Below, piece after piece: positions 2,247-7,742 of a DNA stretch of 64,000 nt (within the stretch, counting starts at the first letter, position 1; the number at the start of each line of letters is the position of its first letter). The notes beneath the pieces were generated by a model that did no database searches, had not been told where the DNA came from, and saw nothing but the letters and a program-made list of their open reading frames with translations. Location: positions 62,001-126,000 of the forward strand of contig NZ_VWPL01000005.1 in assembly GCF_008630065.1 (NCBI RefSeq). The letters are read 5' to 3'. The position numbers and the translations under genes are program-made. This stretch comes from Blastochloris sulfoviridis. Its GTDB lineage: Bacteria > Pseudomonadota > Alphaproteobacteria > Rhizobiales > Xanthobacteraceae.

Positions 2247-2894
2247 TCACGGTCGGAACGCCAGCGCCTCCGCCGGCATCTCCACGCCCGGCAGGTTGCG
2301 CGGATCGGGCTCCGGCGCCAGTACCTCGGTGCGGATGGGGATGACGCCGGCCCACACCGGGAAGGCGTAATCGGTCTCGTCATCCTCCGGCGGGCCGACC
2401 CGCACCTTCGCCGATGCCTCGTCGAACGGCATCGACATCACCGTGGTCGCCTCCAGTTCGTTCGGCTTCATCGGCCGCAGCCGCTCCCACTGCCCAGGAA
2501 TCAGGCGATTGACCATGGTGCGCAAATGGGCCTCCTTGGCCGCCGGGTCAGTGACCTTCGAGGGCCTGCCGAACACCATCACCGAGCGGTGGTTGACGTT
2601 GAAGTTGAAGGCCGAGCGCGCCATCACCAGCCCGTCGATGGCGCTGACCGTGAGACACACCTCCGCACCCTCGATCGCCCGGATCATCCGGCTCGCCGCC
2701 GAGCCATGCCAATAGAGCTGGTCGCCCTCGCGCCAGTGCAGCGTCGGCGTCACGAGCGGCTGGCCGTCGGCCACATAGCCGATGTGGCAGTGGGGGATGG
2801 CGTCGAGAATGGCGACGATGGTATCGCGGTCATAGCGCGCGAGCCAATTGTAGCGCCGGACGCGGGTGCGCTCGCTGGGCGGGGTGGGTGTCAT
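2247..2894 (-). CDS. Pyridoxamine 5'-phosphate oxidase-like FMN-binding protein
   Basis: A 215-residue protein of the split-barrel flavin-binding superfamily (Pyridox_ox_2/MSMEG-like). The start at 2894 is supported by AGGAGG about 8 bases upstream; a longer in-frame start at 2930 lacks one. Recognisable pieces are HIGYVADGQPLVTPTLHW near the N-terminus (the FMN-contacting strand pair), CLTVSAIDGLVMARSAF, and NHRSVMVFGRPSKV in the second half of the barrel. Such proteins bind FMN or haem and often act as stress-related oxidoreductases; the substrate cannot be told from sequence. It is transcribed divergently from anfA, and the shared 223 bp region holds the anfA control sites. Confidence 0.8.
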   Translation of the reverse strand: MTPTPPSERTRVRRYNWLARYDRDTIVAILDAIPHCHIGYVADGQPLVTPTLHWREGDQLYWHGSAASRMIRAIEGAEVCLTVSAIDGLVMARSAFNFNVNHRSVMVFGRPSKVTDPAAKEAHLRTMVNRLIPGQWERLRPMKPNELEATTVMSMPFDEASAKVRVGPPEDDETDYAFPVWAGVIPIRTEVLAPEPDPRNLPGVEMPAEALAFRP

Positions 2895-2991
2895 TCGCGA
2901 AGCCTCCTGTGCTGCATGCCAGCGGCCCACCGCGGATGCCGATCGGGCCAGCCTGCCCCGCCTCTTGCACAGAGCATGCCGACCGCCTCTT

Positions 2992-3020
2992 TTCGTTTTA
3001 TAGACATTTTATATAACGCA
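2992..3020. promoter_or_regulatory. Mo-box (ModE/Mop-type molybdate repressor operator) upstream of anfA
   Basis: An inverted repeat with arms TTCGTTTTATA (2992-3002) and TATATAACGCA (3010-3020) around a 7-base spacer. The right arm contains TATATAACG, the canonical ModE half-site, and 9 of 11 arm positions pair. The site lies 35 bp upstream of the -24 element of the anfA promoter. In relatives with alternative nitrogenases, ModE-type proteins bound to molybdate repress anfA through such sites; that function here is inferred. Confidence 0.75.
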
Positions 3021-3054
3021 AATAATTTTGCCGGAGATCCCCGCTCTTCCAAGA

Positions 3055-3071
3055 TTGGCCTCGAATTTGCT
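3055..3071 (+). promoter_or_regulatory. Sigma54 (-24/-12) promoter of anfA
   Basis: TTGGC at 3055-3059 and TTTGCT at 3066-3071 match the sigma54 consensus. The invariant GG (3057-3058) and GC (3069-3070) are separated by exactly 10 bases. Transcription would start near 3082, about 36 bases before the anfA ATG. This implies activation by an enhancer-binding protein such as NtrC; I see no clear NtrC dyad. Confidence 0.7.
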
Positions 3072-3117
3072 ATACGGTTTCAAGCTGGGTTCCCCCAGTC
3101 CAGCGCGAAGGGTCTCT

Positions 3118-4743
3118 ATGGACGAAACCACCGTCCTCACATTCGACATCGATGACTTTGTCGAGGAGTTCAGCCACTGCTTCACTGGCGAATGCCGCGT
3201 GAGCGTGCTGCCGATTCTCTACAAGATCAGCCAGATCAACACAAATTCCGCCGACCTCGCCCGCGCGCTGCCGATCATTCTCGGGGTGATGCGCCAGCAC
3301 CTCAAGATACAGCGCGGCATGGTGACGCTCTATGACCGCCACTCCGGCTCGATCTTCATCCACGACTCCTTCGGCCTTGCCGAGGCGGAGAAGACGGCCG
3401 GCGCCTACGCGCCCGACGGCGGCGTCACCGCCAGGGTGGTGGAGACCGGCAAGGCCGTGGTCGTGCAGCATCAGGGCGGCGACGCAGACGCCGAGGGCGC
3501 CTCACGCCGAAGCTCGTCGCGCGTCAAGTCCGCCTTCTTCTGCGTGCCGATCGTCCACGCCAAGCGGGTGCTCGGCACCATCGGCGCCGAGCGCGTCTAC
3601 ATGAACCCGCGCCTGCTGCGCCAGGATGTCGAACTCCTGGCGATGGTGGCCTCGATGATCGCGCCGGCGGTCGAGCTCTATTTGATGGAGAATGTCGACA
3701 AGGTGCGCCAGGAGCATGAGGCGCGCCGCATCCGGGCCGCGCTGAAGGAGCGCTTCCGGCCCTCCAACATCATCGGCAACTCCAAGCCGATGCAGGACGT
3801 CTACAACCTGATCGAAAAGGTCGCCGCGACCAAGGCCACCGTGCTGATCCTGGGCGAGAGCGGCGTCGGCAAGGAGCTGGTGGCCAACGCCCTCCACTAC
3901 AACGGCGCCACCGCGGAAGGGCCGTTCGTCACCTCCAACTGCGCGGCACTGCCGGAGAACCTCGCCGAAAGCGAGCTGTTCGGCCACGAGAAGGGCTCGT
4001 TCACCGGCGCGCTGGCCCTGCACAAGGGCTGCTTCGAGCAGGCCGACGGCGGCGCCATCTTCCTCGACGAGGTCGGCGAGCTCAGCCTCTCTATTCAGGC
4101 CAAGCTGTTGCGGGTGCTGCAGCAGAGGAAGTTCGAGCGGGTCGGCGGCACGCGGCCGGTGAAGGTCGACGTGCGCATCATCGCCGCCACCAACCGCAAC
4201 CTCGCCGAAATGGTCGAGCGCGGCACCTTCCGCGAAGACCTCTACTACCGCCTCAACGTGTTCCCGATCACCGTGCCGCCGCTGCGCGAGCGCGGCGCCG
4301 ACGTCATCACGCTGGCCGACCACTTCGTGACGTGCTTCTCCAAGGAGAACGCCAAGACCATCAAGCGCATCTCGACGCCCGCGCTCAACATGCTGATGAG
4401 CTACCACTGGCCCGGCAATGTGCGCGAGCTGGAGAACGTCATCGAGCGCTCGGTCATCCTGTCGGAGGACGACGTCATCCACGCCTACGATCTGCCGCCC
4501 TCGCTGCAGACGCCGAACGAAAGCGGCACCGCCTTCGGCGTCAGCCTGGAGTCGAAGCTGCGCGCCGTTGAATACGAGATGATCGTCGAGGCGCTGAAGA
4601 CATCGAACGGCCACATCGGCGATGCCGCCAAGGAGCTGGGCCTCACCCGCCGCATGCTCGGCGTGCGGATGGAGCGATACGGCATCAGCTACAAAAGCTT
4701 CCGCGGCGCCGATGTGCGCAAATGGAACGCCGACGAGGCCTGA
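3118..4743 (+). CDS. anfA: AnfA, sigma54-dependent activator of the iron-only nitrogenase genes
   Basis: A 541-residue enhancer-binding protein. An N-terminal GAF domain (about 45-190) is preceded by the metal-ligand-like motif HCFTGEC with Cys21 and Cys26, the position of the essential cysteine pair of AnfA proteins. The AAA+ domain follows with Walker A GESGVGKE (246-253), a GSFTGA loop (293-298; Ser replaces the usual Ala of GAFTGA), Walker B FLDEVG (315-320), and the arginine-finger region around [13 protein letters not shown]. The C-terminal Fis-type helix-turn-helix covers about 498-525 ([18 protein letters not shown]). The long interdomain Cys motif of alphaproteobacterial NifA is absent. 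The gene precedes anfH in the same direction. Its own promoter carries a Mo-box and a sigma54 site, so it should be made only when fixed nitrogen and molybdenum are scarce. Confidence 0.93.

Positions 4744-4957: not shown

Positions 4958-7742
<2,785 letters not shown>

Follow-up and report, generated by a model that had tools for sequence, protein, structure and literature searches.

Predicted molybdenum control of the back-to-back sigma54 promoters that separate anf3 and anfA in Blastochloris

In Azotobacter vinelandii, the anfA gene possesses an RpoN-dependent start and a putative ModE site, all of its transcripts are repressed by molybdenum, and AnfA activates the expression of its own gene (PMC9542535). 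In Rhodobacter capsulatus, anfA is activated by NtrC together with RpoD, and MopA and MopB act at a Mo-box (PMC6925177). The ModE operators of E. coli have the form ATCGCTATATA-N6-TATATAACGAT (PMC2700814). Against this background, we analyzed the anfA upstream region of a Blastochloris genome.

The region between anf3 and anfA

The window, a 64-kb stretch of DNA, is part of a 3.85 Mb genome that was used for the genome-wide scans and was compared with two complete sister genomes of 3.9 and 3.7 Mb (three Blastochloris genomes in all). The photosynthetic reaction centre L subunit differs at 23 of 273 positions (counted by hand in the alignment) from that of PDB 1prc, which we take to be Blastochloris viridis. 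The anfA gene (3118-4743, plus strand, with the ATG at 3118) encodes a predicted sigma54-dependent activator with GAF, AAA+ and HTH_8 domains and is followed by anfHDGK. The divergent gene (2247-2894, minus strand), the identity of which had been missed in the first-pass annotation, is anf3, encoding the heme/FAD oxidase of the Fe-nitrogenase system, judging from the match of its product to Pfam PF12900 and from its best PDB match, 6rk0_A (E-value 9e-89), which is the A. vinelandii Anf3 (PMC6579470); it is 61% identical to the gene in the A. vinelandii locus. The two genes are separated by 223 bp.

This intergenic region contains a ModE-type dyad, TCGTTTTATA-N7-TATATAACGC (2993-3019, assigned to neither strand), which reads TTCGTTTTATA (2992-3002), spacer GACATTT (3003-3009) and TATATAACGCA (3010-3020). 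The dyad matches the consensus TCGTTATATA/TATATAACGA in 18 of 20 positions, compared with a top score of 14 when the intergenic region was Markov-shuffled 2000 times; when described by the half-sites CGNTATATA/TATATAACG, it agrees in 17 of 18 core positions, with a single mismatch. A scan of the window with up to three mismatches allowed yields this site only, with none in 100 whole-window shuffles. At the same threshold, the complete genome contains two sites, of which the anfA dyad is the best (one mismatch) and the second (three mismatches) lies near modE, whereas the genome-wide controls, with the pattern reversed or with N6 spacing, yield no sites at all. A separate genomic copy of TATATAACG (C88:74039), which has no second arm, was considered as a Mo-box and dropped. 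Of the 18 arm columns, 15 are identical in all three Blastochloris genomes, compared with none of the seven spacer columns (hypergeometric p ~2.5e-4, calculated by hand); this selective conservation of the arms settles that the Mo-box is more than a chance match. The two half-sites are the same as in the E. coli operators, but the spacer is 7 rather than 6 bases long, and N7 spacing is shared by the two sister genomes and by several anfA-like regions of alphaproteobacteria. We regard the dyad as a candidate ModE operator at which binding of Mo-loaded ModE would bring about repression by molybdate.

The predicted sigma54 promoter of anfA, TGGCCTCGAATTTGCT (3056-3071, plus strand), displays a near-consensus -24/-12 pattern with GG at 3057-3058 and GC at 3069-3070 separated by N10, and a transcription start is expected near 3082. 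On its own, this match is not a rare one: about 2% of random sequences of 223 bp equal its score. In each of the three Blastochloris genomes, however, the box begins at the same point, exactly 62 bp upstream of the ATG, and 8 of the 10 columns of its -24 and -12 elements are invariant, compared with one of six in the middle (hypergeometric p ~0.02, by hand). The distance from the Mo-box to the -24 element is about 35-36 bp and varies by 2 bp across the three species. A direct reading of the letters bears out the earlier description of a Mo-box about 35 bp upstream of a sigma54 promoter with exact GG-N10-GC spacing.

Describing the Mo-box as upstream of the promoter is correct with respect to anfA but incomplete, given that a divergent sigma54 promoter, predicted to serve anf3, is only 11 bp away on the other side. 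This promoter, CGGCATGCTCTGTGCA (2966-2981, minus strand; start expected near 2956), also has the GG-N10-GC arrangement and a near-consensus -24/-12 pattern, is conserved in the three Blastochloris species, and maintains the 11-bp gap between its -24 element and the Mo-box identically in all of them. Its match to the consensus is weaker than that of the anfA promoter, with two deviations (an initial C in place of T, and GTGC for TTGC); it is located 87-89 bp from the anf3 start codon in Blastochloris, compared with 84-85 bp for strong sigma54 boxes in Telmatospirillum. Thus, a feature overlooked in the first-pass annotation is that the Mo-box sits between back-to-back predicted sigma54 promoters. 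The block TTGCAC-N3-GCRTGCCG (2965-2981) was also considered as an NtrC-type upstream activator site, but its GCAC-N5-RTGC spacing does not fit NtrC; there are no other perfect copies of this block in the three Blastochloris genomes, its conservation taken alone is not striking, and it is better explained as the minus-strand sigma54 promoter of anf3.

Farther downstream, the predicted sigma54 promoter of anfH, TGGCACGCCGGTTGCG (5192-5207, plus strand), matches the full consensus and is located at -73/-74 in the window and in genome G001. It is preceded by an AnfA-type site TAC-N6-GTA, TACCGGAATGTA (5020-5031, neither strand assigned), which occupies the same place in G001. The AnfA-type elements upstream of anfH (4960-5031) also include GAATTTACCGG-A-CCGGTGAATTC, an imperfect palindrome immediately before this site.

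Regulatory proteins and molybdenum genes

The first-pass annotation had made its proposal dependent on the presence of a ModE-like protein, and the genome does encode, on another contig (C29), a full-length ModE of 268 aa with an HTH and two TOBE domains that is alignable with E. coli ModE from end to end. A second ModE-like protein, of 148 residues (1426-1872 in locus L002, contig C66), consists of the HTH DNA-binding domain only and lacks the molybdate-binding TOBE domain. One rpoN gene was found in the genome. Homologs of NtrC and NifA score above the NCBIfam cut-offs, and both carry GAFTGA, the motif that contacts sigma54; for NtrC, this matters because its R. capsulatus counterpart has RpoD as its partner, also in the activation of anfA. 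Taken together, the sequence of the region, its genus-level conservation and the presence of ModE, RpoN and sigma54-type activators lend good support to the prediction that anfA is doubly controlled, through the Mo-box and through sigma54.

No canonical sites for NtrC (GCAC-N7-GTGC), NifA (TGT-N10-ACA) or AnfA (TAC-N6-GTA) are recognizable at 2247-3400, and this lack of a recognizable activator site is the main gap in the proposal. An AnfA site, in the form of either TAC-N6-GTA or GGTAAAT, is absent upstream of anfA in the window genome and in both sister genomes. Motif searches in the roughly one half of the genome that was read did not detect the NtrC targets glnB/glnK, glnA and amtB.

As suggested in the first-pass annotation, other copies of the dyad were sought in the genome, and the one further site with three or fewer mismatches overlies a transporter gene near modE. 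In this gene, which encodes a substrate-binding protein, an N7 Mo-box covers the start codon (C29:7691-7715), an arrangement seen in three genomes of two genera (the window genome, G002 and G011); in the window genome, a TonB-receptor gene comes next and modE lies alongside. Extending the scan for N7 dyads with three or fewer mismatches to genomes of the genus and the family revealed one ahead of a mop-containing cluster in G001, with a weaker copy in the window genome (C11:151436). Their placement at the substrate-binding-protein gene beside modE or at mop genes ties the N7 dyads to molybdenum genes, and the substrate-binding protein and TonB receptor possibly serve molybdenum uptake under ModE control. 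Just before modA of modABC (6512-6537 in locus L097, contig C77), there is a degenerate dyad with N6 spacing, GCGCTATATTcggtagAAAATAGCGC, compared with N7 in the anfA Mo-box, and the window genome may use both 6- and 7-base spacings. A testable Blastochloris molybdenum regulon is thereby outlined that includes anf3/anfA, the substrate-binding protein with its TonB receptor, modABC and mop.

Proposed mechanism and alternatives

Based on the observed sites, their conservation and the proteins encoded in the genome, we propose, with a probability of about 0.68, that the 223-bp region consists of molybdenum-gated divergent sigma54 promoters. When molybdate is present, a dimer of Mo-bound ModE would occupy the Mo-box and turn anfA off. 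The anf3 gene would probably be shut off through the same Mo-box, because the latter ends 11 bp from the anf3 -24 element, compared with 36 bp for the corresponding element of anfA. In the absence of molybdenum, the Mo-box would be free and both promoters open; under nitrogen limitation, an activator with GAFTGA, most likely NtrC, would then drive RpoN polymerase at the anf3 and anfA promoters, and AnfA would afterwards activate anfHDGK via its own site before anfH. Taking the sigma54 starts to be about 12 bp past the GC, ModE-Mo would cover approximately -37 to -63 at anf3 and there abut RNA polymerase or stand in its way; at anfA, it would cover approximately -63 to -89 and interfere with the activator, with DNA looping or with both. 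Blocking of the activator or of enhancer contact at anfA, as suggested earlier, is a possible mode of repression.

Other arrangements can be envisaged. The Mo-box could serve anfA alone, with the nearby anf3 promoter escaping molybdenum repression or its sigma54 box being nonfunctional. The weaker consensus match of the anf3 box and the A. vinelandii arrangement, in which the Mo-box abuts the anfA promoter far from anf3, would fit such exclusive service, but the Blastochloris Mo-box is closer to the anf3 promoter than to that of anfA, and it is the former distance that is the same in the three species while the latter varies, so we consider it unlikely. Somewhat less probable again is a two-promoter logic in which a basal sigma70-type promoter overlapping the Mo-box is the true target of ModE, with sigma54 amplifying expression later through AnfA autoactivation. 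There is a precedent in A. vinelandii, where the ModE site contains one of the anfA starts and the RpoN start is autoactivated by AnfA (PMC9542535), and a sigma70-like match, TTTATA-18-AATAAT, does overlap the Blastochloris Mo-box. Its -10-like hexamer, however, is not retained in the sister genomes (the aligned hexamers are GAAGTC and CTAATC), so this promoter, once considered, is not conserved, and AnfA sites are lacking before Blastochloris anfA, yet one is present before anfH.

It is quite improbable that NtrC and RpoD drive anfA and that the sigma54 box is incidental: R. capsulatus anfA operates in this manner (PMC6925177), and Rhodobacter maris has a Mo-box without a sigma54 box, but the anfA sigma54 box of Blastochloris is conserved at a fixed position and its NtrC contains GAFTGA. 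Finally, short AT-rich dyads can arise randomly, but zero are expected in the window and in the controls, and the selective conservation, which spares the two arms and not the spacer, leaves almost no credence for a functionless chance palindrome.

The Mo-gated divergent promoters, if they function as proposed, imply that one short region can merge molybdenum and nitrogen signals to set the timing of synthesis of the costly Mo-free nitrogenase, and that the Anf3 oxidase is tied to the same switch as anfA.

Comparison with known systems

We surveyed anfA-like upstream regions, most of which have a sigma54 box and few a Mo-box. Among the loci with a nitrogenase reductase gene seen downstream (those without one may be vnfA or incomplete loci), both elements are combined only in A. 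vinelandii and the three Blastochloris genomes. In the AnfA tree, Blastochloris is placed near Telmatospirillum, Azotobacter/Azomonas and Rhodoblastus, with support values (84/92) that are not firm; with a single exception, genomes that have a divergent anf3 belong to this part of the tree. The three Telmatospirillum loci resemble Blastochloris in having divergent anf3 and anfA genes with a sigma54 box each, and a similar distance of the anf3 box from the start codon, but they lack a Mo-box and instead contain a GGTAAAT AnfA-type half-site in the middle of the region. It is conceivable, albeit at slightly less than even odds, that in Blastochloris the Mo-box has taken the central place held by the AnfA enhancer in its relatives, such that one ModE operator gates both promoters and anfA no longer autoactivates. 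If true, this would be a rewired circuit that combines tight molybdenum gating with direct activation by nitrogen status of the Fe-nitrogenase regulator and the Anf3 oxidase together.

The purple-bacterial precedent invoked in the first-pass annotation holds only in part. R. capsulatus does offer an alphaproteobacterial anfA that is nitrogen-controlled and repressed at a Mo-box by ModE-type proteins (PMC6925177), but this best-studied case depends on NtrC and RpoD, not on sigma54, and anf3 is not reported as a divergent partner; Blastochloris would accordingly be an alphaproteobacterium that employs sigma54 in place of the RpoD used by that model. The actual precedent is a gammaproteobacterium, A. 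vinelandii, where RpoN and ModE control of anfA is already known, with an RpoN promoter and a ModE site before anfA, a divergent anf3 and repression by molybdenum (PMC9542535). From this system, the predicted Blastochloris arrangement differs in three respects: the spacing of the Mo-box (N7 as opposed to N6), its position (36 bp from the anfA -24 element as opposed to 9 bp, within an intergenic region of 223 bp as opposed to 732 bp) and the AnfA-type enhancer, represented at A. vinelandii anfA by TACCTAACGGTA, with no counterpart found in Blastochloris. The different spacing and position suggest, short of proof, independent origins for the Mo-boxes of Azotobacter and Blastochloris.
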